Shown: positions 4,906-49,020 of the stretch, piece by piece
Layout: each line of letters starts with the position of its first letter
Numbering within the stretch: the stretch's first letter is position 1
NCBI GenBank assembly: GCA_030156945.1
Contig: JASGLT010000001.1
Location: forward strand, 113,677 to 177,676
Direction of reading: 5' to 3'
Source of the DNA: Thermococcaceae archaeon
GTDB lineage: Archaea; Methanobacteriota_B; Thermococci; Thermococcales; Thermococcaceae
Length of the DNA: 64,000 nt
The notes under the pieces: generated by a model
What the model was told of the DNA's origin: nothing
Database searches by the model: none
The model's input: the letters and a program-made list of their open reading frames with translations, nothing else
Position numbers and translations under genes: made by a program

Positions 4906-5832
4906 ATGAGCAGGTTTTCAATGGAAGAGCTGGAATTTCTTACGAATATCCTGCAAAAGCATCCCCTCGACAGCCTCAGAAAAATCTCAAAGGAGGAGAG
5001 GGTGGATTATTACAAGCTCAAACGGCTTTACGACAAGTACTACGGGAAACACGTCACAGTAAGCGCAATCTACAACCCAAGGAAACTCGGGCTAAAGAGC
5101 TATGTAACATTTCTAAGCGTCCCCTCCGATTCGATTCTTGAAGTGGCTAAAAAAATGTCTTCAAACCCCTACGTATCATACCTCAATCCTGCATTTGGGT
5201 TCAAAAACGGTCTCACAGCTTTCATGGCAGTTCCCAAGGATCAAGTCAACCTTATCGATGAGTTCCTTTCAAGGTACTCTGACGATTACGAGTGGTATGA
5301 AATGCAACCGTATTCTTACTCCATAGACGACTCTGAGGATGGAGGCTGGAAATTCAGCTACGACTACGCCATCCTGATGGATATTCTAAAGGAGGACGCC
5401 CGAACTCCCATATCCGAGATAGCAAACAAACTCGGAAAGACGGGACCCACCGTCAGGTACATGATAGAGAGGCTAAAAAAAGAAGGCGTAATCCTCGCGT
5501 TCGAGGCCGTAGTGGATATGACAACCCACGACAGGGGAGTAATCGGGATAACCCGCGAGCTGAAAGAGGAAGTTATCCAAAAGTTCCAAGATTACGAGAT
5601 GTTGATAGCAGTGCTGCCCGGCCATGGCTACATGATCGAGTGGTACTTCTCATCAAGTGAAGATTTGGGGCTGAAAGTGATGGAATTCAGCCGATACGTG
5701 GATAAGCTCCTGATTGAATACTTCGATGAAACCTTCAAGAAGATGAACGACGAGAGAATGAAAAGAAGGTTCAGGATGATAGTAAAAAAGGACGGGAGTG
5801 GCTACAGGTCCCTTCTGGATTTCATGGGCTAA
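4906..5832 (+). CDS. two-module Lrp/AsnC-like winged-helix regulator
   Basis: The 308-aa protein repeats an Lrp-like plan. A first helical DNA-binding-like segment (residues ~5-45, 'SLRKISKEERVDYYKLKRL') is followed by a RAM-like alpha/beta module. A second, clearer winged HTH lies at ~150-195 ('DARTPISEIANKLGKTGPTVRYMIERLKKEGVI'), with another alpha/beta module after it. I preferred the ATG at 4906 to the GTG at 4903 because of GGTGAG spacing. The last codons overlap the convergent SPASM gene by 4 bp. Control of the neighbouring SPASM gene or the shared promoter motif is possible but unproven. Confidence 0.75.
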   Translation: MSRFSMEELEFLTNILQKHPLDSLRKISKEERVDYYKLKRLYDKYYGKHVTVSAIYNPRKLGLKSYVTFLSVPSDSILEVAKKMSSNPYVSYLNPAFGFKNGLTAFMAVPKDQVNLIDEFLSRYSDDYEWYEMQPYSYSIDDSEDGGWKFSYDYAILMDILKEDARTPISEIANKLGKTGPTVRYMIERLKKEGVILAFEAVVDMTTHDRGVIGITRELKEEVIQKFQDYEMLIAVLPGHGYMIEWYFSSSEDLGLKVMEFSRYVDKLLIEYFDETFKKMNDERMKRRFRMIVKKDGSGYRSLLDFMG

Positions 5833-6761
5833 AAAACTATTGGGCAGTACTCAACTCCCCCCAGGTCTCCCGTGGCCTGGAACTCGAGTGCCCTGCAGTC
5901 GTGGCATATGTATTTGAAGGGGCATTTAGAGCAGGTTCCTATTCTGTCCTTTGTCAGCGTCCAGAAATCGTTGACCGCCTTTCTCCTGAGAATGTCCCTC
6001 AGCTTTCCGGTTTTTAAATCCCCAAGCACGAACCCCCGCAGGAGGGGACAGGGGAGTACGTAACCATCGGCAGTTACCGCCAGAGTGTCGGCGAGGCACG
6101 GGCTGTATTTTTCCAGGTTTGGGCTGAAGACCCTCCTGAGCTCAACGACATTGAAGTCGAGCTTTCTGTAGGAGCCGGGGAAGAGCACGTCCACGTATAC
6201 TTCTCCCTCAAAACCTATATTCATGCCCAAAAGTTCGTCAAGGTCCTTCCCCCTAACCGTCACCAACGCGCCGTGAAGCCAGTCAAAAACCTCAAGCTCC
6301 TTGATGTTGTCCCGATAGTAATCCACCTCGGCCACGAACTTAACACCTTCTACGGGAGAAGCCTTTTTCACATCCTCGAGAAGTGCCACTGCGTAAACTT
6401 CGGGAATTCCCAGCTCCACGGCGTAGGAAGACACCATGAGGAGCTGTTCAAGAGTGTCGTAATTGGTGAGCCAGAGCTCCTTTCCCCCCATTTTAGCGAA
6501 CTCCCTTAAAATCTCCTGGATTTCCTCAACGCTCATTGGCTCACGGCGCAGGATGAATCTGTTGTTGCCGATGCATCCTATAGAACGAGGTATACCCTCG
6601 GTTTCCGAAAATCTCCCCTTTCCCTCACCCAGCTGCACTATAAGCCTCTCAAGCTTCCCTTTTTTGGGTTTGACTGTCCACGGAGGTTTTGCCACCGATA
6701 CAACCCTCAGCTTAGAGTTGCCTCTCAAACTAATTACGGCACTTTCAACTGCCTCTTCCAT
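5829..6761 (-). CDS. SPASM-domain protein, degenerate radical-SAM-like
   Basis: The 310-aa protein has a C-terminal SPASM-type Cys array: 'YSPCLADTLAVTADGYVLPC' and 'GTCSKCPFKYICHDCRALEF', then a final Cys in 'VEYCPIVF'. SPASM domains bind auxiliary Fe-S clusters in peptide-modifying and other radical-SAM enzymes. The N-terminal CX3CX2C motif is missing; only 'GCIGNNRF' is present. It may be a catalytically dead or repurposed relative, or it may need a partner. The start follows GGGGGAGGCAGC. A 17-bp motif about 56 bp upstream of the start is identical to one upstream of the large surface-protein gene at 20365. Confidence 0.7.
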   Translation of the reverse strand: MEEAVESAVISLRGNSKLRVVSVAKPPWTVKPKKGKLERLIVQLGEGKGRFSETEGIPRSIGCIGNNRFILRREPMSVEEIQEILREFAKMGGKELWLTNYDTLEQLLMVSSYAVELGIPEVYAVALLEDVKKASPVEGVKFVAEVDYYRDNIKELEVFDWLHGALVTVRGKDLDELLGMNIGFEGEVYVDVLFPGSYRKLDFNVVELRRVFSPNLEKYSPCLADTLAVTADGYVLPCPLLRGFVLGDLKTGKLRDILRRKAVNDFWTLTKDRIGTCSKCPFKYICHDCRALEFQATGDLGGVEYCPIVF

Positions 6762-33925: not shown

Positions 33926-34000
33926 AAGGTTCACCGAGTAAATGTTAAAACCTAAACAACTTAAATACTTGCCCCACATCAAATACCATAGGTGACGCTC

Positions 34001-34450
34001 ATGTTCGAAGAAATTATAAAAAAGCTTCTCGAAACTAACGCTCCTACTACTTCCAAACTCAAAATCCCGTTAGCAGGAATTAAAGCTTTTGAAACAATTA
34101 TTAAGTCAAAGGAATCAATTGATCCTGATATCGCAGTCAAAATAGCAGTAGCCGAATTCACTAAATATTCGACAGGAGACCCTGAAGTGATAACTAATTT
34201 CAAGAAGATTGTCAAAAGAGAATTTTCTAAACTTAACAACCCTAAACTATTGAAGAAAAAAGCGAGAGCTCTCAAGGAAATATGGGAAACCGAAGCTAGA
34301 ACTTTGACAGCCCAAAGCAAACGAAATAAATGGTTATCAATCAGGGTTACAGAAACAGAGTACGAAGCCATTCTCCAACAGGCACAAATGGAAGGGCTTA
34401 GTTTATCTGCCTATATCCGAAAGAAATTAGGTTTAAAATACAATTCGTAA
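34001..34450 (+). CDS. ribbon-helix-helix protein, putative R-M controller
   Basis: The 149-aa protein has a helical N-terminal part and a C-terminal ribbon-helix-helix-like segment '[20 protein letters not shown]', '[14 protein letters not shown]'. The ATG at 34001 follows GGTGACGCTC. It lies directly before the Dam methyltransferase and a promoter with repeated TGTTGCAC boxes. It could be the regulator of the R-M genes; a MobC/relaxosome-like accessory role is an alternative. Confidence 0.6.
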
Positions 34451-34548: not shown

Positions 34549-35502
34549 ATGGTAGAACCGGTATTAAAATGGGCAGGAGGAAAACGGCAGATATTACATG
34601 AAATCGTCGCTTTAATGCCTAAAGACTTTAGGGATAGAACATTCCACGAACCATTCTTTGGAGGAGGGGCAGTAACTTTCTGGATGGAACCCGAAAGAGG
34701 AACTATAAATGACATAAACCCCAAGCTGATAAACTTCTATGTGGTAGTCAGGGATCATGTGGATGAGCTCATTGAGGATGCAAAAACACACAAAAACGAA
34801 AAAGAATATTTCTACAAGGCCCGAAAAGAGTTTAACGAGATTGTCAGAAACGGATTCGAGATACCGAATGTCAGACTCGCTAGCCTCCTTCTGTATCTCA
34901 ACAAAACGGCGTTTAATGGACTGTACCGCGAAAATAAGAAGGGAGAATTTAACGTTCCCTTTGGAAGATATAAAAATCCAAAAATAGTTGATGAAGAACG
35001 CCTTAGAAAAGCCAGCGAAGTCCTCAAGAAGCTGGAGATATATAATGAGGACTTCACATACATAGTGAAAGTTGCCAAACCTGGTGATCTAGTGTATTTC
35101 GATCCACCTTACCACCCCATTTCCGAAACCTCTAGTTTTACCAGTTACTCTAAGGAGGACTTTAGTAAAGAAGACCAAGAGCGCCTTAGAGATGTCTGCC
35201 TTGAACTTCATGAAAAGGGGGTTTACTTTATTTTGAGCAACTCATATGTAAAACCAGTTCGCGAATTGTACGAGGGGATAGATGGAATTGAAATGTTCAA
35301 AATCTACGCAAAGAGAGCCATAAACTCAAAAGCCGACCGTAGAGGCACAGTTCCAGAGATGTTAGTCACGAACATCCCTACGACGCTGAGGATAGGCAAA
35401 AACAAAGCACAGGTACTAGTGAACAATAATGGAAACCAATCTATGTCCAAAAAAGCTAAGGAAAATATCATTAGTCAGAAAGTACTTGTAGAGTTTCTAT
35501 AG
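34549..35502 (+). CDS. DNA adenine methyltransferase, D12 class (GATC type)
   Basis: The 317-aa protein has 'PVLKWAGGKRQIL' (SAM motif), 'FHEPFFGGGAVTFW', 'INDINPKLINFY', 'YLNKTAFNGLYREN' and the catalytic 'VYFDPPYHPIS'. These are typical of alpha-class Dam/M.DpnII enzymes that methylate the A of GATC. GGAGGCGTGATT precedes the ATG at 34549. Its 3' end overlaps by 6 bp the convergent DpnII-type endonuclease gene, so the two form a complete type II system. The DNA is AT-richer than neighbouring operons. Confidence 0.93.
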   Translation: MVEPVLKWAGGKRQILHEIVALMPKDFRDRTFHEPFFGGGAVTFWMEPERGTINDINPKLINFYVVVRDHVDELIEDAKTHKNEKEYFYKARKEFNEIVRNGFEIPNVRLASLLLYLNKTAFNGLYRENKKGEFNVPFGRYKNPKIVDEERLRKASEVLKKLEIYNEDFTYIVKVAKPGDLVYFDPPYHPISETSSFTSYSKEDFSKEDQERLRDVCLELHEKGVYFILSNSYVKPVRELYEGIDGIEMFKIYAKRAINSKADRRGTVPEMLVTNIPTTLRIGKNKAQVLVNNNGNQSMSKKAKENIISQKVLVEFL

Positions 35503-36408
35503 CCTCGTCATCTCCCACTTTATTGAACTAAAATAAGCAAGCAATCTAGGAAGTTGAGAGTAATTAACAACCCAATCTATCTCTTTCATTCCTCTTTTGA
35601 GAGGTTCTTTCATCTTCTTCCATGCAGGACCATCTGTTATCCATACAAAAGTCACTCCTTTTTCTTTAGCGACTCGATTTAATGTGATGTAACTTCCAAC
35701 AATTTCGGTAGGTTTGCTTCCCGTTGTATTATAAAAATTCACTTCGATCGCAACTATTGGTTCATTATCTTTGTATATTACGAGATCGTGTCTCTTTGCT
35801 TTCCCCCGAGTTTTTCCAATATTTTCATATAAGGAAAAGTTATGATCTTGAGGAACAACTTTGACATAATCTGGGACATTTCCCTCTATGACACTTTTAA
35901 CCATGTTTTCAAATAATAATCCACTACGTCCTTTCCTAGAATTTGTATCCATCCCTACCTCAACTCCTAATAGATATTCATGGAGATTTTTAACACTTGT
36001 CAAAATATCTAGCACCCCACTCTTCTCACAAAATTCAATAATGGCATCTGCTTCCGAATCTGATACCATGTGTGGTCTAAAGTTAAACTCTAAAAATTTC
36101 ATTTTGGATGGATCATACACATCTATTTTCCCCCTGACAGCCCTTTCTGCTATAAGAGAAGGAATAACTTGAAGGACAGAAGGATGTTTTTCTATTGTTC
36201 TTTTTAATATCGACTTGGCAGTATCTCTATCAACTCCATAAAGTTCCTTTAGGAAGTCTAACTCTGCTGTATATCTATTAGCGAAGCTTCTCACCTTTTC
36301 CCAATCCACGAAGTATTCGTAAGTCTTATTGGTCGGGAGTAGAGTTTTCATGAAGTCTTCAAAGTAGTCTTCAAAGGTAGAGTATCCTAAAGTATTGTAT
36401 TTTACCAT
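35497..36408 (-). CDS. type II restriction endonuclease, DpnII/MboI family
   Basis: The 303-aa protein shows the DpnII family core 'GVEVGMDTNSRKGRSGLLFE' and 'KRHDLVIYKDNEPIVAIEVNFYNTTGSKPTEI'. The second contains the PD-(D/E)xK-like D..ExN catalytic array. It is expected to cut unmethylated GATC. The gene is convergent with the D12 methyltransferase, an order that lets the two be controlled separately. The start at 36408 lacks an obvious ribosome site, so a leaderless mRNA is possible. Confidence 0.92.
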   Translation of the reverse strand: MVKYNTLGYSTFEDYFEDFMKTLLPTNKTYEYFVDWEKVRSFANRYTAELDFLKELYGVDRDTAKSILKRTIEKHPSVLQVIPSLIAERAVRGKIDVYDPSKMKFLEFNFRPHMVSDSEADAIIEFCEKSGVLDILTSVKNLHEYLLGVEVGMDTNSRKGRSGLLFENMVKSVIEGNVPDYVKVVPQDHNFSLYENIGKTRGKAKRHDLVIYKDNEPIVAIEVNFYNTTGSKPTEIVGSYITLNRVAKEKGVTFVWITDGPAWKKMKEPLKRGMKEIDWVVNYSQLPRLLAYFSSIKWEMTRL

Positions 36409-36484
36409 TCAGTTATCACCCAAGTTACCTAAGGTCGAAAGTTTTAAATATTTTATCTCCCGAAAGAAATGCTAGTGATGCCTA

Positions 36485-38404
36485 ATGGAGTCAGAACGAA
36501 AAGAACTCTTTATTCAGAGTCATGACAAAACTATAAGAGAGATACTAAATACTGGTTCCTATCATTATGTAGTTCCAGAATTTCAAAGACCATACTCGTG
36601 GAATACTACCGGATCACATAGACAACAGGTAGTTGATCTATGGGAAGACCTTATGGACATCATAGAAAATAAAAATAGAGATTTTCACTTTATGGGAGCC
36701 ATGATATTTGCAAAGAAACCAGGGGACGCTAAAACTCGGATAATAATTGATGGCCAGCAAAGATTGCTCACTCTTACTATAATCTTCGCAGCTATGCGTG
36801 ACGTCATATTTGAAATTATATCCACGAATAAAAGAGCAGATCCTGCAGTCAAAGCTTACTTAGAACGGTTAGCACTTAGTTCTATTCATGAGAGAGTTAT
36901 TGCAGGATTTGACGAGAATACAGGGGATGAAATTCCCCTGATTGATCCACATCCTGATGATAGGAGATTCTTTTTAGATTTCATAGTCCGTTACAGAAAA
37001 GTGGATGGTAGCTACCTCCTATTTAAAGAAAAAAAAGAAGAATGGAAAAAAATACGTAATTTGGGCGAAGTTATGCCTTCCCACATTAAAATGTGGAAGG
37101 CTTATGAATATTCATATAGGCAAATACAAAAGTTATTATTTCATGGCGATCGGCGAAAGATACAGGATCTTAATGAAGTGAAAGATAGACTTCAAAACTT
37201 GTTTTCCAGCTTAATGGATAGCCTACAAGTGATAGCAACTCAAGCTAAAAACGAAGAAGATGCCCACGTAATCTTTGAAACCCTTAATGATAGGGGTGTT
37301 GAATTAACAGTAACTGATCTTATCAGAAACTACATATTCTCAAAGGCTACTACCCCCGAACTGAGAACCTATATTCGAGATCAATGGGATCAGATTAGGA
37401 ACAATACTTTAAGAAAGATGGATACATTCCTTAGATACTACTACATGATTTTTAACGGAAAAGCCCGAAAGAAAGGACTATATAAACAATTAAAGGACCT
37501 GCTAGAGTCAAAAATACAAAAACAGGGAATAAGAAGTACATTAAACGAGCTGTTATGGTATTCTAAAGTTTACAAAATATTGGTTAATCCCCCTGAGAGA
37601 GCATCGAAAAAGAGCAAAATGGAGGCAAAAATTGTCCAGTTCTTGCTGGAACATAAACTTTTCGGAGTTCAACAAGACTTTCCCCTCTTAATGGTTGCAT
37701 ATAAACTTTATGAAAAAGATCAGAAGGAGGAGTTCGCAAAGATCCTAGAGTTTACAAACTCTGTTATTGTTAGATATTTAAAATTACTAAATAACAGCCC
37801 CAGTAGTTTAGAGAAGATCTATGGCAGTCTAGCTTATGAACTTAATATTCTAATTGAGTCGGGTAAATACCAAAGTTTTGAGAGTTTTCTCATGCAGCAG
37901 ATCTCTGAAAAGGAAAGCCTCAAGGAATTCTTAGATACCCTCCAAAATGATGACTTAATTAGATCACAGCTAATACAATCTCCAATCACTCCCGAAAGGG
38001 CAAAAGAGATACTAATAGCTCTCACTAATAGGGAAAAAGGAATCATTGCAGATCCCAATGAAGTCTCCATAGAGCACATTTTACCCCAGAATATCTCTGA
38101 AAAATGGATTAAATCAATCTTTGGAAGTAAACTAACTACAGAGGAGATATCCAAAAAAAGAAAAGAACTAGAACAATACATAAACAACATCGGAAATCTT
38201 ACACTAATCTCTCTTGAAGACAATGAGCGTATTCGTAATTTACCCTATGATAAGAAGGTTGAATATTATCGCAAATCAATGTACCCACTGACCAAGGAAA
38301 TTCCACTAAAATATTCAAAATGGAACACAAATTCAATAACAAAAAGGGCTGAGGAGTTATCAGAAAAAATACTTTCCACATGGAAAATAGAACTTCATGG
38401 CTAG
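36485..38404 (+). CDS. GmrSD-like DUF262/DUF1524 nuclease
   Basis: The 639-aa protein has an N-terminal DUF262 domain ('YVVPEFQRPYSWN', 'IIIDGQQRLLTLTIIF'), a ParB/Srx-like NTPase region. A long helical middle and a C-terminal DUF1524 HNH-type nuclease ('VSIEHILPQNISEKW', 'YINNIGNLTLI') follow. Fused proteins of this kind form type IV restriction enzymes (GmrSD) that cut modified phage DNA. Length and order are standard. A GTGATG sits upstream of the start. It lies between two restriction/modification genes. Confidence 0.9.
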   Translation: MESERKELFIQSHDKTIREILNTGSYHYVVPEFQRPYSWNTTGSHRQQVVDLWEDLMDIIENKNRDFHFMGAMIFAKKPGDAKTRIIIDGQQRLLTLTIIFAAMRDVIFEIISTNKRADPAVKAYLERLALSSIHERVIAGFDENTGDEIPLIDPHPDDRRFFLDFIVRYRKVDGSYLLFKEKKEEWKKIRNLGEVMPSHIKMWKAYEYSYRQIQKLLFHGDRRKIQDLNEVKDRLQNLFSSLMDSLQVIATQAKNEEDAHVIFETLNDRGVELTVTDLIRNYIFSKATTPELRTYIRDQWDQIRNNTLRKMDTFLRYYYMIFNGKARKKGLYKQLKDLLESKIQKQGIRSTLNELLWYSKVYKILVNPPERASKKSKMEAKIVQFLLEHKLFGVQQDFPLLMVAYKLYEKDQKEEFAKILEFTNSVIVRYLKLLNNSPSSLEKIYGSLAYELNILIESGKYQSFESFLMQQISEKESLKEFLDTLQNDDLIRSQLIQSPITPERAKEILIALTNREKGIIADPNEVSIEHILPQNISEKWIKSIFGSKLTTEEISKKRKELEQYINNIGNLTLISLEDNERIRNLPYDKKVEYYRKSMYPLTKEIPLKYSKWNTNSITKRAEELSEKILSTWKIELHG

Positions 38405-38405
38405 A

Positions 38406-39362
38406 CTATACATTAAAGCTTTCATTAAATTTTTCAAGTTTCTCCTTTTTGTTTGGCTTTCGGAATACAAACAAGTGCTCATGTGCTATCAAGTAAAAGT
38501 CCCTTTTCCGGGCCTTCCAGGGTTCAGTTCCCCTCATGTTATGTTGAATCTTGATAATGTCCTCTTTCAGTATGAATCCAACTTCTAAGAATGCTTTCAT
38601 TACCCTGAATGCTATTGGAACATAGTGCCTATGTCGTCTAGTGTCCCCCATTAAAATTGCTGCATATTTTCCAGGCTTGAGCACTCGGTAGAACTCCTCA
38701 GCAACTTTTTTCATCTCTTGAATGAACTCATCAATTGATTTCACTTTAGATAAATCACCTTCTACCTGAGAACTCGCCCTTTTAGTATACCCAATGATGT
38801 TTGCATAAGGGGGATGAGTCGCTATTAAGTCAATGCTCTCATCTTCAATCTTATCTAAATTTCTAGCATCCCCGTGATAAAGATGTATTTCAGGTTTAAC
38901 CCATTCTATTTCCTCTTTTAATCCTAAATAAGAATCCAACGTGGATGTTTTATCAGATAGAGGATCATACTTAAAATTCAACCGATCCCATGCCACCATA
39001 AGTGCGTCATAATTTATATCAACACCAATTCCATGCCGCCCTAGCAACTTACACTCTATCAAAGTTGTCCCACTCCCCAGAAATGCATCAAGAACAACAT
39101 CTCCAGGTTTTGTGTATCGAAGAATCAAGTTTCGAGGAACTTGAGGTGCCCAGTTACCCCTATATTTAGCATTTGCATAATGAGTGGCCCATTTTCCTCT
39201 CTCAGGAAAACTCCAAACAGTAGTGGTTTCCAGCCTAAAGTTTTGGGGCTGGAATGTTTTGATCGGGATAGGTCTGCCGATTTCTATCTTTTGATTCTCG
39301 ATGATGACGTAAGAATGAGATTTAATAAAATCAAGATATTCCTCAAACGTAACCTCTCTCAT
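38406..39362 (-). CDS. DNA methyltransferase, N4-cytosine/N6-adenine beta class
   Basis: The protein of about 318 aa has the permuted order. The catalytic-like 'DLIATHPPYANIIGYTK' motif is present in the centre, and 'KPGDVVLDAFLGSGTTLIECKLLGR' is the SAM-binding motif. The usual [S/N/D]PPY reads HPPY here, a variant that may alter specificity. The ATG at 39362 follows GGTGGGCAGGCCT. No dedicated endonuclease gene is adjacent, so it may be an orphan modifier or partner of the DUF262 protein. Confidence 0.85.
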   Translation of the reverse strand: MREVTFEEYLDFIKSHSYVIIENQKIEIGRPIPIKTFQPQNFRLETTTVWSFPERGKWATHYANAKYRGNWAPQVPRNLILRYTKPGDVVLDAFLGSGTTLIECKLLGRHGIGVDINYDALMVAWDRLNFKYDPLSDKTSTLDSYLGLKEEIEWVKPEIHLYHGDARNLDKIEDESIDLIATHPPYANIIGYTKRASSQVEGDLSKVKSIDEFIQEMKKVAEEFYRVLKPGKYAAILMGDTRRHRHYVPIAFRVMKAFLEVGFILKEDIIKIQHNMRGTEPWKARKRDFYLIAHEHLFVFRKPNKKEKLEKFNESFNV

Positions 39363-39387
39363 AGGCCTGCCCACCTTATTCTAGTGT

Positions 39388-40111: not shown

Positions 40112-43100
40112 TCACGAGCCGAAGAACTCGTCGAGACTTATGCCCTTCCTCCTCTTCTTTGCCTTAGATTTCTCCTTTCTTACTGCCTCGCGGACATCAG
40201 CTCCATTCTGACCCCCTTTCTTGCCAACGAGACCGTTCTTAAGGTCGTCGAGGTAGCCGTTGTTTCCGTTGGACTGCCCTGTACGAGCTCTCACCATCTT
40301 TTCACACACATCCGCTGAAAAGCCCATCAGCGTCCTCTGCTTCTCGGGAAGAACGTTCTCAAAGAGCGTCTTTATGTCCTTCTCGGTTATGCATATCCTC
40401 TGCCTGGTGTAGTCAAGGACGTTGTATTTCGTGACCAGCATCTTTGCAGTTGGAAGGTACTTCTCTATTGCACCCTTGCTGACGGTCAGGACTATCTTGC
40501 CGCCGCACTTGGGGCACTTTCCAATGAGGGGCGGTCTCCGGTACTTTGTGTTACACTTGACACACCTGAACTCCTGCCTCGTGAAACTCCTCAGGTTGCC
40601 CCTCAGGTCCGGAACGAGGTGGGAGTTTATTATCGTCTCGGCAACGTGGTGCTCGTCAACGGCCCTTATGCGCTCCGCCAAGGCCAGCTGCCTCGCAACC
40701 TTATCCACCATGTCGCCGAGCTGTTTGTACAGGCTCATCTTCGGGCCGAGCGCTATGTTGTCCGTGTCGTGGGTGAACTTTATGCCCTCGTACATCTCGG
40801 GCTTTCCTAAGCGGTCCTCAACCCTCTCGATGACCTTCACTTCCTTTGGAGACTTGAGCTCGTAGGTCGCTTTATAGAACTCGAGCGGATAGTAGCGGAC
40901 AACGTCCATGTTGTGGACCTCGCTGTCAACCTCCCTCGGGTCGAGCCTCGTGGTAACGACCAGCGGGGCGTCCATCTTGCCGCCGCGCTTTTCTGGGAGG
41001 TAGTATCTGCTGAAATTGAGTAGAGCATCGAGGAGGAGCATTACGGCGTCCTCGTCGCCGTCGCATTGGTGTGTTACGATATTTTCGTTAATGACCACAC
41101 TATGGTACTTTTTAGCGTTTAAAGAGAACACAAAGTCATCTTTTGGTGTGATGTATTCAATGCGTTTCACCGAGGATGTTATGACCCCCTCCCCCTCGAC
41201 GACTGCCATTTGCTCTCCTTCCCTGACCTCAAAGGCCCTCTTCTCAACGAACTTACCGTTTTCATAGACGAGCACCGGATGGTCAACCGTCGTTTCAAAG
41301 CTCCTGCCGAGCTCAAGTTCGAACCTTATCAGGTGATCAGTTGATGGCGCCTTTATTACGTCCTCTACCTCAGTAAGGACGACCTTTCCGCTCTCCGGGT
41401 CAAATGAATAGACCTTAACGTCCACTTTCGGCTTCTTCCTCACGTAGACCATGTTTTCGTACTCCTCGTCTTCAAAGAGGTCGTAGAGTTCCCTGAGGGT
41501 TATCCTCTGAGGTAGGCCGTTGATCTGGACGAGTATTCTCGTGTCGGCAGGGAAGCAGTTCCTCCTCTTAGCCGCATGGAAGTACGGGTGCGCATAGCCC
41601 ACCAAGACGTCGGCGAAGCCTATTATCCTCCCGATGATGCCAGCCGAGGTGTGGGGGGCGAGGCCTATCACGAGGTGGCCGACCAAATCCTCCATCTTCT
41701 CGGCGTTGTAGAAGCGCGGGAGGCCGTAGAACTTCTCGAGCAGGTCGTCTATGAAGCGGGCGACCTTGAGGAGGTATCTCCCGGCCTCATAGGGAAGTAT
41801 AACGTCCTGAACCTTCAGCTCGAGTATCTGGTCGTCCCTCTCGAGCGGCTTGCCCTCAAAGTCGTGGGTGTAGCCGAGTTCCCTAAGCTTCTCGACGCTC
41901 GTTCCTATTTCCTTCGGCTTGAAGTGGGTTATCGGAGCGTCGGTCGCGTCGAAACGGATTGTACCGTCTTTAAAGACGTATACATCGTTCTTAGCCCTCA
42001 GAAGCCCTTTTTCGAGGGGTTCGGCCATTTTATGGCTTGAAGTCATTCCCTGGACGCCCTTAAGCCGGTCTACCCCATAGACCTTTACGTTCTCCATTGC
42101 CTGCCTCAGAAGCTCGGAGGGTTTTATGTTCCTCCTCGCGTAGGGCTTGAGCTCAACCTCACACTTCGGGCAGTGGAAGTTGAAGTCCTTAGCCTGGTTC
42201 TCAGGATAATCGGCGTTGCACTTAGGACAGTGCCAGAGGAGCTCCTTCCTCGTGCTACACACGGGACAGAGATGCTCAGGGCCTACGTGGCCGCATTCCG
42301 GGCACTTGAAGAAGGCAATCTCAACGCTCGCAACCTTTCCTTCCTCTGCAGCTTTCTTAATGTCTCTACTCGGGCCGCCGGCGAGTCCTATTGGAAACAG
42401 AACCTGGACCGGAGGCTTCATCTTCCTCTCCTTGGCCTTCTCGGGCCTCCCCATCCTCGCACCGATCCAGCTTATTCCCCTATCGCGGAGCTTTATCCTG
42501 TTGTTCTCGTTTATGATGTCTATGACAGTGTAGAAGGGCTTCGCCTTAAACTCCCACTCCAGATTGCCGAGCGGCGTTAAGAGGGCCGCGCTCCACGGGT
42601 ACTCAACCACTATTACCTTTCTCTTCTTCTCGACCCTCTCAAGCCTGTGAGGGATACCGAGAAGCTCAAGGTAGCGTTTGATAGTTTTATCGTTATCAAG
42701 GACGACCTTCTTCGCGAAGCGGTTCTTCCTGAACTCAGCCCACTCTATCTGAGCACCCAGAAGGGCCTTCTGAAGCTCTTCAACTTCTTCCGGCTTGAGG
42801 GTGTTCCAGTAGAGGGTGTAGTACGGGTGGAAAGGTATGTCGAGGACGGTTGAAAGGTGAATGGCAGTCTCCACATCGGGCTTTACTCTGAGCGGATCCC
42901 TTAAGAGGTCCCACAGGAAATCTGGCTCGACCTCAAGATACTCAGCCGCTTCCTCTACGGCTTCCCTACCGTTCTCCGCAAAAGGCTGGAGCTCGACCTC
43001 GTAAAGGTCTTTGACGGCCTGGACGAGCTCCTGAATCCACCACTCCTCAACGTAGTTGGCCGGAAGGAGGGTCTGGTTGTTCTCGACGAAGTCGCCGAAG

Positions 43101-44437
43101 TTTACGAGGGCGTCACCAACGTAGAGTATCTCCTCTATTTCGTTTCTCACCTTCAGAGCCGTCTCGTAGTCATCAACCCTTACCACACTTCCGTTCTTGA
43201 GTTTGACTATCGGACCCTCCACAGTGGTCGCCGGCGTGACGATACAGCCCTTGCCAGGCCTTTCCGTTTTCATCTGGGTTCCAACGGCTATGAACTCATC
43301 GAGGACAAGCATCGTGGCCGGGTTAACGCTCCACGTGGCAAAGCCAGAAACCCTCGAACGCCCGTAACGCAGCCTAAAGCCTCCGTTGGCCGAGGGTTCA
43401 GCGAAGAGGGGCCTACCTCCGATTATCTCCTTTGTGTACTTGTTGTTTGGAGCTATGTTCGCCCTGAACTTTTCGTAGAGCTCGTAGTAGAAGCCCTTCT
43501 CGACCTTCTCTTTCTTTTCAGCGAGGCTCTCAGTTCCGGTGTCTTCGGCCTTCGATTCCTCTTTCTTCTCCTCGCCGCCACTCTCTTTAGCCTCGACGAA
43601 CTCCTTTATCCAGTCCCAGCCGTCGATCCCCATCTTGTCTATGTACTTCACAAGCTTTTTGGCCTTCTGAAGAACGCCCTCAGCGAGAACAAGGATGGCA
43701 CCGCCACGGAGGTGGTTGGTCTCAACGCCGGGGACGTCCCTGTGGGAGACCTCTACCTTGTCGGTTTCCTCACCGGTTATCTCTATGGGAATGTTCCTCA
43801 TTGCCAAGCGCACTTCATCAGGTTCTGGATGGTACTGGAGACGAGTAACCGCCCTGTGATAGAGGTCAACCTCCTCGACCATCCTCTCAATGTGCTTTTC
43901 GCTCGGCTTGAACCTGTCGAGGCCAAGCTTTTTCCTCACGTAGTCGCCAACGAGGACGCTCAAAGCCTGAGCCGTTCCACCGGAACTTCTGATCGGGCCG
44001 GCGTAGTAGAGGGCAAGGTACTCGCTCCCGTCGGCCCACTCATTGCGCTTTATTTTGACGTCAGCGATACCTTCCAGTGGAGCGGAGACTATACCCTCTG
44101 TAAGAATTGCCAGGGCAGTCCTCACCGCCTGCTCTGCGTACTTCTCCTTGCTACCGAGATCACCGAACTTGCCCCCGATTATCTCATCAACAACTTTAAG
44201 GGCCGCTATCTCCTTGCCGTACTCCTTGACCAGCTCCCTAATTCTCTCAGCCACACCTGGTGGCCCGACGAGACTCTCGACACGGCCTGCCATGTCAGTG
44301 GCCTGCGGAACCTCTACCTCAAGGCTCGGGTCTTTACCCTGTGCGCGGGCCTTCCTCGCTATCTCATAGGCCCTGTCTATCTCGCGCTGGAGTGATTCAA
44401 AGTAAGCCTTCATTTCATCGGAATAGAGTTCAGTCAT
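40112..44437 (-). CDS. polC: DNA polymerase D large subunit (DP2), contains an intein
   Basis: The precursor has about 1441 aa from the ATG at 44437 (GGGGTGGTCGTCC upstream). Family sequences include 'KYAEQAVRTALAILTEG', 'YAGPIRSSGGTAQALSVLVGDYVR', zinc-binding Cys clusters ('FKCPECGHVGPEHLCPVC' and 'FRCVKCNTKYRR') and the catalytic 'CDGDEDAVMLLLDALLNFSRYYLP'. With DP1 it forms the archaeal replicative polymerase. The C-terminal tail 'KGISLDEFFGS' looks like a PCNA-binding motif. An unrelated gene separates it from DP1, and it has its own TATA-like sequence. Confidence 0.96.
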   Translation of the reverse strand: MTELYSDEMKAYFESLQREIDRAYEIARKARAQGKDPSLEVEVPQATDMAGRVESLVGPPGVAERIRELVKEYGKEIAALKVVDEIIGGKFGDLGSKEKYAEQAVRTALAILTEGIVSAPLEGIADVKIKRNEWADGSEYLALYYAGPIRSSGGTAQALSVLVGDYVRKKLGLDRFKPSEKHIERMVEEVDLYHRAVTRLQYHPEPDEVRLAMRNIPIEITGEETDKVEVSHRDVPGVETNHLRGGAILVLAEGVLQKAKKLVKYIDKMGIDGWDWIKEFVEAKESGGEEKKEESKAEDTGTESLAEKKEKVEKGFYYELYEKFRANIAPNNKYTKEIIGGRPLFAEPSANGGFRLRYGRSRVSGFATWSVNPATMLVLDEFIAVGTQMKTERPGKGCIVTPATTVEGPIVKLKNGSVVRVDDYETALKVRNEIEEILYVGDALVNFGDFVENNQTLLPANYVEEWWIQELVQAVKDLYEVELQPFAENGREAVEEAAEYLEVEPDFLWDLLRDPLRVKPDVETAIHLSTVLDIPFHPYYTLYWNTLKPEEVEELQKALLGAQIEWAEFRKNRFAKKVVLDNDKTIKRYLELLGIPHRLERVEKKRKVIVVEYPWSAALLTPLGNLEWEFKAKPFYTVIDIINENNRIKLRDRGISWIGARMGRPEKAKERKMKPPVQVLFPIGLAGGPSRDIKKAAEEGKVASVEIAFFKCPECGHVGPEHLCPVCSTRKELLWHCPKCNADYPENQAKDFNFHCPKCEVELKPYARRNIKPSELLRQAMENVKVYGVDRLKGVQGMTSSHKMAEPLEKGLLRAKNDVYVFKDGTIRFDATDAPITHFKPKEIGTSVEKLRELGYTHDFEGKPLERDDQILELKVQDVILPYEAGRYLLKVARFIDDLLEKFYGLPRFYNAEKMEDLVGHLVIGLAPHTSAGIIGRIIGFADVLVGYAHPYFHAAKRRNCFPADTRILVQINGLPQRITLRELYDLFEDEEYENMVYVRKKPKVDVKVYSFDPESGKVVLTEVEDVIKAPSTDHLIRFELELGRSFETTVDHPVLVYENGKFVEKRAFEVREGEQMAVVEGEGVITSSVKRIEYITPKDDFVFSLNAKKYHSVVINENIVTHQCDGDEDAVMLLLDALLNFSRYYLPEKRGGKMDAPLVVTTRLDPREVDSEVHNMDVVRYYPLEFYKATYELKSPKEVKVIERVEDRLGKPEMYEGIKFTHDTDNIALGPKMSLYKQLGDMVDKVARQLALAERIRAVDEHHVAETIINSHLVPDLRGNLRSFTRQEFRCVKCNTKYRRPPLIGKCPKCGGKIVLTVSKGAIEKYLPTAKMLVTKYNVLDYTRQRICITEKDIKTLFENVLPEKQRTLMGFSADVCEKMVRARTGQSNGNNGYLDDLKNGLVGKKGGQNGADVREAVRKEKSKAKKRRKGISLDEFFGS
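41066..41557 (-). mobile_element. mini-intein in DP2 (164 aa)
   Basis: Residues from 'CFPADTRILVQI' to 'VVINENIVTHQ' interrupt the catalytic motif, between 'KRRN' and 'CDGDEDAV'. Block A starts with Cys, block B has 'TTVDHPVLV', and block G ends 'VTHQ' before a Cys +1. The terminal residue is Gln instead of the usual Asn, a known variant for this insertion point in Pyrococcus PolII inteins. At 164 residues there is no room for a homing endonuclease, so it is a mini-intein. Confidence 0.92.
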
Positions 44438-44544
44438 GGACGACCACCCCTGTTCCAAGAAGAGAAGCGGAAGTATATCTAGTAAAATCAAGTAACAAAA
44501 GGTAAAAATTTAGAATTGAAGTCCATTTATAGGTCGATATTAAA

Positions 44545-44570
44545 GGATACCGCCTAGTCTGGCGGTATCC
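44545..44570 (-). terminator. stem-loop between the inserted gene and DP2
   Basis: 'ggataccgcc' and 'ggcggtatcc' form a perfect 10-bp stem around a 6-base loop. On the minus strand the stem is followed by TTTAATAT. It may terminate the upstream transcript. A TATA-like 'cctataaatgg' then follows for DP2. Confidence 0.5.
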
Positions 44571-44621
44571 CCATTTACATACTGGCAATAATGTTATATA
44601 AAGATTTCGCATCATCTCAAC

Positions 44622-45701
44622 TCAACCTCCATATTTGGAAATAAGCTCTGATATTTTCATATGGGTTATCGGGAAGCCCAAAGACGTGAGATATTCTCCG
44701 ATTCCATGTCCATACGGCCCCACAGAGACTACAATACCACCATTTCTGCGGAGGTCATCGATGTCCCCACCTACCCCCTTCTGAAGTGAGAGGAACTTTA
44801 TAGACCCGCCGACTTCGGACGCATGTCTTAAGACGTACTCGAATGCAGGAGATTTTTCAATCAAACGCTGTTCTTCATCCTTCTGGAGCAGCCCTTCCTT
44901 GATAACGTAGATTATGGGGCGTGAATACCAGTATTGTGGAAGAACACGATTTTCAGCCGATAGAGGCACTATTTTGGACAGACTCTTACTCCCAACATGG
45001 TACACCTTCAACAGATCAGGAGGAAATCCCAAAGAGGGTAGATTCCTAAGAAGAAAACGTACGTCGAGCCTCCATTTTGAGAGTAAAATGCTCTCCTTGA
45101 TGTACCTGAGGATGAGATCAGCAGTGGAAACTAGGGGATCAACTTTGTCCCCGTTGGGGATCACTCTAAGTTCACTGGCTCGTTTTGAAAGTTCATCCCA
45201 CGCCACCGTTTGAGGGGAAGGATTGAAGTTGTCAATATGAACCTTAGACATTGTGTGATTGAGCTTGGATACCACCAGCCACGCGGGAACGTACGCAAAG
45301 TAAGATTTCAAAACATTTTTCAGGAAGGCCATAACACTCTTAGGGGGACCATTTGGCATATAAATTTGCCTAATACCAAAGGAGGCAAAAACAAAGTTTG
45401 TAATAACATCATTAGGAATGACAACGTCGTCAACGAATTCCTTCATGAAAAGCAGATATTCAGTAGGATCTCCGTCCTCCCCGATAAGATACCCCCTCAG
45501 GTCTGAAGAGGAAAACACCCATCTAGGAGTTTGTATCCCCATGCTATCTTTAAACTGCTCAAAAAACTCTCTGTATGAGTTAAGATAGTTACTAAAATTG
45601 GAATCCCTAACACTGACTGCAACCCCAATTCGTGCAATAAAAGTCCCATTCTGCCCAGCGAATTTGATATCGCCCTCATCGGAGCCAATAATTAAACCCA
45701 T
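44622..45701 (-). CDS. unknown protein inserted between DP1 and DP2
   Basis: The protein of about 359 aa from the ATG at 45701 begins 'MGLIIGSDEGDIKFAGQNG'. It has no signal or membrane segment. The early 'GSDEGD..FIARIGVAVSV' and later 'LVSTADLILRYIKESILLSK' vaguely recall RNase-H-like DUF3800 proteins, but I am not confident. Codon use looks more AT-rich than in the polymerase genes. Its start overlaps the DP1 end region (GAGGGGATGTGACC), while a stem-loop follows its end. In Pyrococcus and T. kodakarensis, as I recall, DP1 and DP2 are adjacent, so this is an insertion. Confidence 0.6.
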   Translation of the reverse strand: MGLIIGSDEGDIKFAGQNGTFIARIGVAVSVRDSNFSNYLNSYREFFEQFKDSMGIQTPRWVFSSSDLRGYLIGEDGDPTEYLLFMKEFVDDVVIPNDVITNFVFASFGIRQIYMPNGPPKSVMAFLKNVLKSYFAYVPAWLVVSKLNHTMSKVHIDNFNPSPQTVAWDELSKRASELRVIPNGDKVDPLVSTADLILRYIKESILLSKWRLDVRFLLRNLPSLGFPPDLLKVYHVGSKSLSKIVPLSAENRVLPQYWYSRPIIYVIKEGLLQKDEEQRLIEKSPAFEYVLRHASEVGGSIKFLSLQKGVGGDIDDLRRNGGIVVSVGPYGHGIGEYLTSLGFPITHMKISELISKYGG

Positions 45702-45703
45702 GG

Positions 45704-47773
45704 TCACATCCCCTCGCAGAACTGGTCAAACCTAACCACAGCCCTCAGGCGGGCGGTTTCAACGTCTATTATCGGGACACGGGCCGGAGTCGGCACGATG
45801 TTAACCATCTTCTGGAACTCAGTCTGAGCCTGCCATGTGCCTGTGTTTATCACGAAAACCCCGTTGTAAATCCTGTAGTCCATGACGTGCACGTGGCCGG
45901 CCTGGAACAGGTCAGGAACGGATTCAATTACGAGAGTGTCCTCGGGGTCCGGTGCTATCGGAACCTTCCCGCCAAAGGTCGGGGCGAGGTGACGGAGCTT
46001 GAGGAGATCCACCATGGCCTCAGCGGGCCTGTGGTGACTCCTGTTCGGTATAAAGCTAACCACGTCCTCTATGCCCCTGCCGTGAGCAATCAGAAAATCC
46101 CTGCCATGAAGCCTCAACACGGCTGGGTTGCTTATTATTACGGCATTTTTAAGCTTGTAGAGGGGTTTGGCATATTCCTCATAAAAGCCCGGCTGAGGAA
46201 TAGCTGTTCTCGCGGCGTCGTGGTTTCCGGGACCGATGAACATCGTTATGTGGTCGGGAACGTTCCTGAGCAGGTTGGCGAGGGCCTCGTACTGGTCAAA
46301 GATGTCCGGAATCTCGAGCTCATTGTACTGGCCGGGGTAAATGCCTATCCCATCCACAACATCCCCTGCTATCACGAGGTACTTAACCCTGCTTACGAAC
46401 TCCTCCTCGCGCTTGTTTGCAACCTCCCCGTTCAGCCATTCAAGGAAGCGCTCAAAGGCCTTCTCACAGAACTTGTTAGAGCCCACGTGAATGTCGCTGA
46501 GGAGGATTGCATACACCTTCTCCTCGAGCGGCGGTTTCTCGCGCTTAAACTTCGGAACGTCCGGAAGAAAGATTTTGTCCGCGAAGAATATGTTTCTGCC
46601 CGAATACCTCCCCCTGAAGGCAACGACAGAATCCGGCATTATCTGGAAGAACTTTTTGCTCTCTTCGTTTTCCCTGTTGACAAAAACCTTTATAGTTCCG
46701 CTCCCATCCTCAACCTCAAACATGTACCCCTTGCGCGTCTCCCTCTTGGAATCCACGATCCCGATGATCGTTACGTCTTCATCGGAGTTAACGTATGAGA
46801 GCTTGGCTATATCAATGACCCCACCAACCTCAGGGTTCTCGCGGAGTATTTTCCTCATTTTCTTCAGTCTGCTCTTGAAGTAGTTGGAGTACACCTTGAC
46901 TATTAGTTCCCCTTCCTTTCCAGAGGCGTTCTTCACCTTGGGGGGTGTGAACTTCACGTTCTTCACATCGAATATGAGGGCCCAATCTCCCTCAATTGAG
47001 GCAGCCCTGTAGCTGAAACCTGGCTTTGGAGTTATAACAACGTCCGAATAAGTTGAGTAGGACTTCTCCTCCAGAACCTCTTCCTCGACATAGCCAACTG
47101 GAACGCCGTACTCATCATAAAGGACTTTTGGTATGCCCCCATTCTCACCATTGTACTCCCCAGAGCTTTCCGAATCTTCAATCTCCTGATCGGGTGGAGT
47201 CATTGTTTCATCAACAGCATTATCCTCGAATCCACCATAACCGTTCTCAAAATCCACCTCGGGGGTTTCGGAAGTTTCAGCTTCAGATGCTCCAGTGGAA
47301 ACAAAACTCTCCCCCTCAGAAAAATTGGCTTTTTCCCCCCTATTTTCAAAAACAGGGATATCGGGGGCTTCATTGTAGGGGGCTTCTCCAGTGGAAACAT
47401 AACTATCCAAAACCTCGGAAGAAGATTCAATTTCAGCTTCGTTTTCAGCTGTAGAATCTATTGGATTGGCTAAAATTTCATTTTCAACTTCCTCATGCTC
47501 CAAAGATGATAAAGATGCATCCTCATGAGAGATTGATTCCCCCGATTCATCACTTTTACCGGCAGAGGTTGCAAGTGGAACTTCCGTTACAAGCCCCAGA
47601 GTGGAGAGGAACTCCTCAGCAATCTCGAGGTCAACGACGAAGGCCCCCTTTGATTTGACGAACTTGATGAGCTGGGCCAAAGTAAACTTCTCAGGATAGT
47701 GTTCGCGAAGAAGAAAGAAGGCAGATGGGGTTATGAGGTAGTTGTTGCCCAAGAGGTCCTCTATGAGGCCCAT
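45704..47773 (-). CDS. polB: DNA polymerase D small subunit (DP1), exonuclease
   Basis: The protein of about 689 aa has an N-terminal helical domain, then an acidic Ser/Glu-rich linker (~75-235). An OB-fold ('VTIIGIVDSKRETRKGYMFEVEDGSG') and a Mre11-like phosphoesterase follow: 'LLSDIHVGSNKFCE', 'VIAGDVVDGIG', 'IGPGNHDAARTA', 'LIAHGRG', 'QAGHVHVMDY'. It supplies 3'-5' proofreading to PolD. The ATG at 47773 overlaps the cdc6 stop. The linker DNA contains two matches to the origin recognition box. Confidence 0.96.
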   Translation of the reverse strand: MGLIEDLLGNNYLITPSAFFLLREHYPEKFTLAQLIKFVKSKGAFVVDLEIAEEFLSTLGLVTEVPLATSAGKSDESGESISHEDASLSSLEHEEVENEILANPIDSTAENEAEIESSSEVLDSYVSTGEAPYNEAPDIPVFENRGEKANFSEGESFVSTGASEAETSETPEVDFENGYGGFEDNAVDETMTPPDQEIEDSESSGEYNGENGGIPKVLYDEYGVPVGYVEEEVLEEKSYSTYSDVVITPKPGFSYRAASIEGDWALIFDVKNVKFTPPKVKNASGKEGELIVKVYSNYFKSRLKKMRKILRENPEVGGVIDIAKLSYVNSDEDVTIIGIVDSKRETRKGYMFEVEDGSGTIKVFVNRENEESKKFFQIMPDSVVAFRGRYSGRNIFFADKIFLPDVPKFKREKPPLEEKVYAILLSDIHVGSNKFCEKAFERFLEWLNGEVANKREEEFVSRVKYLVIAGDVVDGIGIYPGQYNELEIPDIFDQYEALANLLRNVPDHITMFIGPGNHDAARTAIPQPGFYEEYAKPLYKLKNAVIISNPAVLRLHGRDFLIAHGRGIEDVVSFIPNRSHHRPAEAMVDLLKLRHLAPTFGGKVPIAPDPEDTLVIESVPDLFQAGHVHVMDYRIYNGVFVINTGTWQAQTEFQKMVNIVPTPARVPIIDVETARLRAVVRFDQFCEGM

Positions 47774-49020
47774 CAAACCAGCCTCCTCTGGGAGGACATG
47801 CTGATGGTTAGGAGGGGCTGGAGCTGAATATCGTGCCGGTAGATGTTTTTAACCTTATAGGGAGTCACGTTGAGCCTTATCTCCTTAGTCCTCCCGTAAC
47901 GCCCTTTGCTGACAACTTTGGCGTTGATGATGCCGAGCATGTCCAGTTCGTTTATGAGGTCGCTTATGCGCCTCTGGGTAAGAGGATCGAGGTCAATGTG
48001 CTCACACAGTGATTTGTAAACTGCATAGACATCGCCAGTATTTGCCGGGAGCTCACCATTTTCGTCGAGGAGCACTATAGAGTAGAGAAGCACTTTCGAG
48101 TGGAGGGGAAGGGTCTTGATGACCTCCTCCATGGTGTCCTGCTCTATCTTCTCCTGAGCACTCCATACGTGCCTCTCGGTTACTTTGCTGGCACCCTCGC
48201 GCTCGGCTATTTCACCTGCAACGCGCAGAAGATCAAGGGCCCTTCTGGCATCACCGTGCTCCCTCGCAGCGAGGGCAGCACAGAGCGGAACCACAGCATC
48301 GTCAAGAACACCCTCGTGGAAAGCCACGACCGCACGTTGCATGAGAATGTCCTTGAGCTGGTTAGCATCATAGGGCGGGAACACGACTTCCTCCTCACTT
48401 AGACTCGAGAGGACACGGGCATCGAGGTACTCTTTGAACTTCAGGTCGTTCGAAATTCCGATTATGCTGACCTTGGCCCGTGAGAGCTCAGTGTTTATTC
48501 TCGTGAGGGAATAGAGAATATCGTCACCACTCTTCTTCACCAGCTTGTCTATCTCGTCGAGAACGATTATAACGAAGCGCTCCCTGGCATCTATTATCTC
48601 CTTAAGCTTGGCGTAGACCTCATCGGTGGGCCATCCGACCAGGGGCACTTCGAACCCGCTCTCATTTCTGAAGTAGTTCACAATGTTGGCCAAAACCCTG
48701 TACTGGGTGTCGACTATCTCACAGTTTATGTATATGACTTCCACTGGAACCTGATACTTCTCAGAGATCCTCTTGAGCTCTTCAGTGACGAACTTCACCG
48801 TAACAGTTTTACCCGTCCCAGTCTTCCCATAGACGAATATGTTCGATGGAGTTTCACCCTTCAGCACGGGGACGAGGATATGGGCCAGGTTTTCAATTTG
48901 CTCCCGCCTGTGGGGAAGTTCCTTTGGAGTATAACTATGTCTGAGCACCTCCTTGTTTTTGAAGATCTTTTTTGCATGCAGGTATTTCTCAAAGATGGAA
49001 CCGAGGTAATCATCGTTCAC
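47773..49020 (-). CDS. cdc6: Orc1/Cdc6 origin-binding initiator
   Basis: The protein of about 415 aa has 'IFVYGKTGTGKTVTVKFV' (Walker A), 'VIIVLDEIDKL' (Walker B), a sensor region 'IIGISNDLKFKEYLDARVLSSL' and a C-terminal winged helix that binds origin DNA ('LTQRRISDLINELDMLGII'). I use the GTG at 49020, after GGAGGTGGGTGCT. The ATG in the ORF track adds eight residues that overlap an origin-box-like sequence. It recognises ORB elements and loads MCM. It is next to the likely origin and first in an operon with DP1. Confidence 0.96.
   Translation of the reverse strand: MNDDYLGSIFEKYLHAKKIFKNKEVLRHSYTPKELPHRREQIENLAHILVPVLKGETPSNIFVYGKTGTGKTVTVKFVTEELKRISEKYQVPVEVIYINCEIVDTQYRVLANIVNYFRNESGFEVPLVGWPTDEVYAKLKEIIDARERFVIIVLDEIDKLVKKSGDDILYSLTRINTELSRAKVSIIGISNDLKFKEYLDARVLSSLSEEEVVFPPYDANQLKDILMQRAVVAFHEGVLDDAVVPLCAALAAREHGDARRALDLLRVAGEIAEREGASKVTERHVWSAQEKIEQDTMEEVIKTLPLHSKVLLYSIVLLDENGELPANTGDVYAVYKSLCEHIDLDPLTQRRISDLINELDMLGIINAKVVSKGRYGRTKEIRLNVTPYKVKNIYRHDIQLQPLLTISMSSQRRLV

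Follow-up and report, generated by a model that had tools for sequence, protein, structure and literature searches.

The junction between the genes for the small (DP1) and large (DP2) subunits of PolD in this Thermococcaceae archaeon holds a compact unit of one protein gene and one predicted small-RNA gene, which is kept as a pair, is mobile, occupies a fixed slot and is under purifying selection. From its parts and its relatives we infer, at a probability of roughly 0.6, that it is a mobile RNA-controlled nuclease cassette of the toxin or defence type, docked in the DP1-DP2 slot. Coordinates without a locus name refer to the window, the whole 64,000-nt stretch of DNA that was analysed.

Organization of the locus

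The original prediction placed a 359-aa protein with comparatively AT-rich codons between DP1 and DP2, and an open reading frame of this kind is found there (Table 1). It starts 2 nt past the DP1 stop codon and ends 184 nt ahead of the DP2 ATG (44437), with an upstream GTG start that would give a protein of 361 aa. The gene has a GC content of 0.443 and a GC3 of 0.456, compared to 0.50 and 0.59 for DP1, and 0.54 and 0.70 for DP2. Pairwise dN/dS values of 0.04-0.15 between homologs show that the protein is under purifying selection, so the frame is not a chance one.

The flanking DP2 gene carries an intein, whose splicing domain covers about residues 979-1100 of the frame at 40112-44437; the intein content of DP2 is apparently highly variable among relatives, with open frames of about 1290 to 1800 aa. 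Nearby, downstream of DP2, lies a low-GC3 restriction island (35497-39374) encoding a DpnII-type endonuclease, a GmrSD-type enzyme and an N6/N4 methylase. A small NikA-like mobilization protein (33992-34450) adjoins this island and hints at an integrated mobile element there.

Table 1. Features of the cassette and its borders in the window
Feature	Position	Strand	Basis
DP1, PolD small subunit, left border	45704..47776	-	NF003117, PF22317, PF04042 (Pfam/NCBIfam)
Cassette protein gene	44622..45701	-	ORF, ATG start, 359 aa
RNase H-like N-terminal domain (predicted)	about residues 1-210		Foldseek to RNase HII
C-terminal alpha/beta domain	about residues 230-359		AF2 model
Spacer between cassette gene and DP2, 184 nt, in place of the empty-site gap of -4 to +11 bp	44438..44621	-	junction census
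BRE/TATA promoter of small RNA (BRE CGAAAT 44609-44604; TATA TTTATATA 44602-44595)	44595..44609	-	conserved, 13/13 homologous loci
Predicted small RNA, about 76 nt (~60-80): 5' hairpin, CGACCUAUA tail motif, T-rich end	44497..44572	-	alignment, folding, covariance model; ends inferred
Conserved hairpin, 12-bp stem, loop AGACTA	44543..44572	-	covariation over 14 loci
DP2, PolD large subunit with intein, right border	40112..44437	-	PF24846, PF03833, PF14890

The DP1-DP2 junction in Thermococcaceae

DP1 and DP2 were located in the 94 genomes of the family, and 87 DP1-DP2 junctions were read. The two genes were expected to be adjacent as a rule in Thermococcales, and 71 of the 87 Thermococcaceae junctions indeed have a gap of only -4 to +11 bp. 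The cassette gene occupies nine, where the gap widens to 1.24-1.34 kb, and one more (genome G003) holds a decayed copy, a truncated remnant of ~130 aa in a gap of 386 bp. The comparison of the locus across species that had been proposed as a check, with nine occupied and 71 empty junctions, thus identifies the gene as an insertion.

Six further junctions contain about 2.15 kb of DNA unrelated to the cassette, a type II restriction-modification (RM) pair of an N6/N4 DNA methylase and a TdeIII restriction endonuclease; a third kind of insert was not seen among the 87 junctions. All six TdeIII endonucleases of the 94 genomes lie in the DP1-DP2 junction. These RM loci come from six genomes of two genera (L059 1267-3364, L060 2006-4187, L061 2546-4643, L062 1584-3682, L063 2667-4770 and L065/L066), and that of G045 is split over two contigs. 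The RM pair resembles the cassette in its insertion point, its scatter and its character as selfish or defence cargo, but its proteins are unrelated to the cassette protein and no RNA partner was seen with it.

Horizontal movement of the cassette

On a host tree built from DP1 and DP2, the nine cassette occurrences require nine changes, compared to a mean of 8.7 for shuffled occurrences, and at least seven of these changes are forced by well-supported branches. The cassette gene is therefore scattered over the tree without more clustering than expected by chance; the six RM occurrences require five changes. The sister genomes G045 and G049 have different tenants, the RM pair in the former and the cassette gene in the latter. 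Moreover, the window gene (G000) is 93.3% identical to the copy of G061, which belongs to another genus, while DP1 and DP2 of the two hosts share 75.1% identity; G011 and G028/G022 are ~98.7% identical as hosts, with cassettes of just 46-48% identity. The cassette has been transferred across genera, and the random-like scatter together with a 93%-identical copy in a ~75%-identical host marks the junction as a hot spot of horizontal exchange. Mobile genes, those of the RM pair included, repeatedly dock at the DP1-DP2 junction.

The borders of the exchanged unit are visible in the DNA. Between G000 and G061, identity goes from ~0.70 in DP1 to mostly 0.87-1.00 in the cassette, and returns to ~0.72 within DP2. 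When carriers are compared with their nearest empty relatives, identity in the close pairs is high as far as the DP1 stop codon, with the last codons forming the left border, and is lowered mainly in the first 30-60 nt of DP2; over the first 30 nt of DP2, carriers and nearest empty relatives share an identity of 0.57-0.80. These steps, at the DP1 stop and some tens of nucleotides inside DP2, indicate that the exchanged unit consists of the gene, the spacer and the very start of DP2. Like a homing-type selfish element, the cassette recurs at one site that is otherwise empty, and is transferred with replacement of its flank. No recognised integrase is present in the cassette, and homologous recombination through conserved flanks would be the simplest account of its replacement. 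The cassette may accordingly have spread between Thermococcaceae by homologous replacement through two conserved stretches, one at the end of DP1 and one at the start of DP2.

The original prediction suggested that the protein may be a selfish or replication-linked passenger. Its passenger-like, horizontally moving distribution agrees with the former term, whereas the latter finds no support, since related copies accompanied by an RNA of this kind occur at sites unconnected with PolD and a distant homolog is located on a haloarchaeal plasmid.

A promoter and a structured RNA downstream of the gene

A BRE/TATA element followed by a hairpin is found downstream of the cassette gene at all 13 homologous loci of the family, three of which are away from PolD (G080, G012 and G083), two of these adjoining glycosyltransferase-like genes. 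The hairpin lies 30 nt from the first T of the TATA element at every locus bar one (31 nt, G044), and the intervening sequence varies. Given the usual layout of archaeal promoters, transcription would begin at the hairpin's first G. The original prediction also had the two polymerase subunits transcribed separately; a strong archaeal promoter does lie between DP1 and DP2, but it is positioned to start at the hairpin RNA, and separate transcription is no more than a possibility. In an alignment made by hand and anchored on the loop, the stem is paired in 163 of 168 cells over 14 loci, with compensatory changes in seven of the 12 pairs. The hairpin sequence is near-identical beside proteins that share just 44% identity, and the folding z-score of the RNA is -3.7 for the window, within a range of -3.7 to -5.1. 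Downstream of the hairpin follow a tail motif (CGACCTATA, CGACTTATG or TGATCTTAT) and then a T-rich stretch.

A strong stem-loop with a TATA-like sequence behind it had been noticed earlier ahead of DP2. The stem-loop is real, and is conserved in sequence and position across homologs, but the conserved TATA lies upstream of it. The TATA-like sequence CCTATAAAT on its 3' side, probably the one first noticed, falls inside the predicted RNA, in the conserved tail motif. Judged from these sequence features, the stem-loop is predicted to be a separate small-RNA gene of the cassette, which the earlier reading had overlooked.

Comparison with Rfam by covariance model gave no matching family for the RNA, the DUF3800 RNA motifs included. 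A covariance-model search recovered the cassette loci and only one orphan copy, in G077, which was not in the training set of the model. This orphan (L209 about 5670-5833) has kept the promoter and the RNA but lost the protein gene, and lies near a gene resembling the one upstream of the G080 copy. Altogether, the RNA is retained in 3/3 decayed loci, with a truncated gene in G003, a frameshifted one in G012 and a deleted one in G077, two of the loci being related; at no homologous locus of the family was a cassette gene found without the RNA. In this small sample of three loci the gene was lost and the RNA stayed behind, in agreement with an RNA that keeps a costly protein in check. Candidate hairpin copies elsewhere, found with a pattern allowing two mismatches, were unlinked and about as frequent as in a reversed control, and were discarded.

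Predicted fold of the cassette protein

The AlphaFold2 model of the cassette protein has a pLDDT of 86.8 and a pTM of 0.89. Structural similarity search using Foldseek matched the N-terminal part to Tk-RNase HII (2dff; probability 0.98), Pyrococcus horikoshii RNase HII (0.96) and human RNase H2 (0.87), with modest E-values of 0.003-0.06; no usable fold match was obtained for the C-terminal alpha/beta domain. The host has an RNase HII of its own, and a single-sequence hhalign comparison with this enzyme (E 0.018) aligns its catalytic-site region with D157 and D185 of the cassette protein, the columns around D105/D135 of archaeal RNase HII being those matched to D157/D185. The N-terminal domain is thus confidently predicted to be RNase H-like, and the distant RNase H-like homology that had been proposed for checking holds at the level of the fold.

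Residues D8, D67, D157, D185 and D195 are invariant among the homologs, and E9 is not conserved. In RNase HII and DUF3800 this position is the second of the DE pair, so the active site would be either rearranged or inactive. Despite being the best fold match, archaeal RNase HII (PF01351) differs from the cassette protein, which has no conserved second catalytic Glu and hence no full D-E-D-D site, and possesses an additional domain and a linked RNA; the protein is not assigned to that family. Searches with the cassette protein gave no match to Pfam (E <= 1) or NCBIfam profiles, PF01351 and RuvC/TnpB included, no match to solved structures by sequence, and nothing significant in PHROGs; neither the protein nor its homologs matched the PADLOC profiles of anti-phage defence.

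Similarity to DUF3800 and distant homologs

DUF3800 proteins adopt an RNaseH nuclease fold and are associated with putative ncRNAs (PMC10910872), the RNA motifs having been first reported by Weinberg et al. 2017 (as cited in PMC10910872). The cassette protein resembles DUF3800 (PF12686) in its predicted RNase H-like fold and in a similar acidic pattern, D...D/E...D...D-10/11 residues-AD, with GD-x9-AD in the cassette. Compared to the N-terminal D-E-[SA]-G motif of DUF3800 and its C-terminal D...Q-x-A-D motif, the cassette protein has invariant D8, D185 and D195 (the last in AD), whereas E9 and the Q are absent. The two systems also share a structured RNA directly beside the gene (RF02968, RF02969 and relatives for DUF3800) and a patchy distribution. 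However, the cassette protein has an extra C-terminal alpha/beta domain, its RNA belongs to no Rfam family, and the cassette sits in a fixed slot of the PolD operon. Neither the window protein nor two homologs tested had a Pfam match to DUF3800, and hhalign against the DUF3800 profile was not significant (probability 0.5%, P 0.11).

Canonical DUF3800 genes of three Thermococcaceae subfamilies have conserved GC-rich structured segments right past the stop codon (e.g. CGCGTACCTCARGGTACGCGGCGG), observed at L103-L108; L110, L113, L114, L116, L118 and L122; and L101, L109 and L112. These segments have no match in Rfam and are likely unannotated RNAs. It is mainly this parallel with canonical DUF3800 genes that leads us to read the cassette protein and its RNA as one functional pair. 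A DUF3800-like protein with a neighbouring structured RNA is of a kind already known from computation. What appears to be new is the family of the protein, its RNA and a docking slot that also takes RM genes, no paper describing them having been found in the literature searched.

Beyond the family, a homolog of 22% identity is encoded on the Halobacterium plasmid pGSL19_54.9 (L028 9604-12964). The region past its stop codon is strongly folded (z -4.1), contains two hairpins and shows no evident sequence similarity to the Thermococcaceae RNA. The homolog adjoins a 522-aa protein without a Pfam match, PD-(D/E)XK-like in the look of its sequence, and the plasmid also bears tail-like repeat proteins and a type I-B Cas operon. 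A pattern-based scan of genome contigs for homologs outside Thermococci returned only two known loci. A viral origin was considered and rejected, as phage records and two scans of viral-contig proteins gave no match; the hairpin sequence occurs in a single viral contig, which is unrelated, GC-rich and devoid of a homolog, and represents a chance match.

Alternative explanations

The hairpin lies between the cassette gene and DP2, behind a strong promoter and ahead of a T-rich stretch that could be a terminator, and might thus be a leader or terminator that keeps DP2 expressed after its separation from DP1, rather than the partner of the protein. This is rather unlikely, because the unit of promoter, 30 nt and hairpin also follows the gene far from DP2 (G080, G083 and G012) and persists as an orphan away from DP2 in G077, and because the RM pair requires nothing comparable when it occupies this slot. 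Another alternative, an accessory protein of host replication that is expressed together with PolD and was lost in many lineages, would agree with the gap of about 2 nt that places the gene translationally close to DP1, and with the purifying selection. Nevertheless, this seems very improbable: most species are without the gene, including close sisters of carriers, the relationships of the genes conflict with those of the hosts, the gene swaps with the RM pair, and copies adjoin glycosyltransferase genes or, in one case, reside on a haloarchaeal plasmid. More generally, since cassette loci exist elsewhere, a role of the cassette for PolD is unlikely.

An RNase H-like fold, an adjacent structured RNA downstream of the gene, toward the flank, and a fixed insertion site recall RNA-guided homing elements of the OMEGA/TnpB/IscB kind, in which the RNA tail would guide the nuclease to the empty junction. 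Yet the longest match of the RNA to the empty junction is 7 nt, compared to an average of 7.6 nt for shuffles, the tail motif is common to copies outside PolD and therefore not guide-like, and no RuvC/TnpB profile match was found, all of which leaves little likelihood for such guidance. Inteins and homing endonuclease genes, such as the intein of DP2 in the window, are likewise selfish DNA at a fixed site of the replicative polymerase locus, but the cassette is inserted between genes instead of inside one, and no homing endonuclease domain was found in it. Closer to the favoured reading, and a specific form of it, is a toxin-antitoxin pair like those of type III (ToxIN/TenpIN), with a toxic ribonuclease that its RNA partner neutralises directly. 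The pairing of a protein with a structured RNA is shared, the RNA outlives the gene at every decayed locus, and the gene never occurs alone. By contrast, type III systems have an upstream RNA repeat array and a ToxN-like endoribonuclease, while the cassette has a single downstream hairpin with its own promoter and a different fold; this form is possible but on the doubtful side.

Proposed model and implications

In the favoured reading of a mobile cassette whose nuclease is under RNA control, the predicted RNase H-like nuclease would be paired with a structured RNA of ~60-80 nt, transcribed from its own promoter just downstream of the gene. The protein would bind its cognate hairpin RNA, and its nuclease would be either restrained or activated by this RNA. 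The pair may then persist as a module for addiction or defence, in the manner of the RM genes that take its place, and the polymerase operon is probably a conserved, well-expressed safe haven and not a functional partner. In a wider sense, we tentatively consider, at somewhat less than even odds, that the cassette represents an unrecognised class of archaeal selfish modules, in which an RNase H-fold nuclease controlled by its own RNA, acting as toxin or antiviral effector, repeatedly re-invades the PolD slot in competition with RM genes.

These findings turn an odd open reading frame into a testable protein-RNA system, and show that mobile cargo has repeatedly docked at the junction of the PolD subunit genes, where RM genes are the other tenant. 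So far, DUF3800 proteins and RNAs have been linked by computation; a compact pair delimited by its promoter, in a family that includes genetically tractable species, could reveal the role of the RNA.
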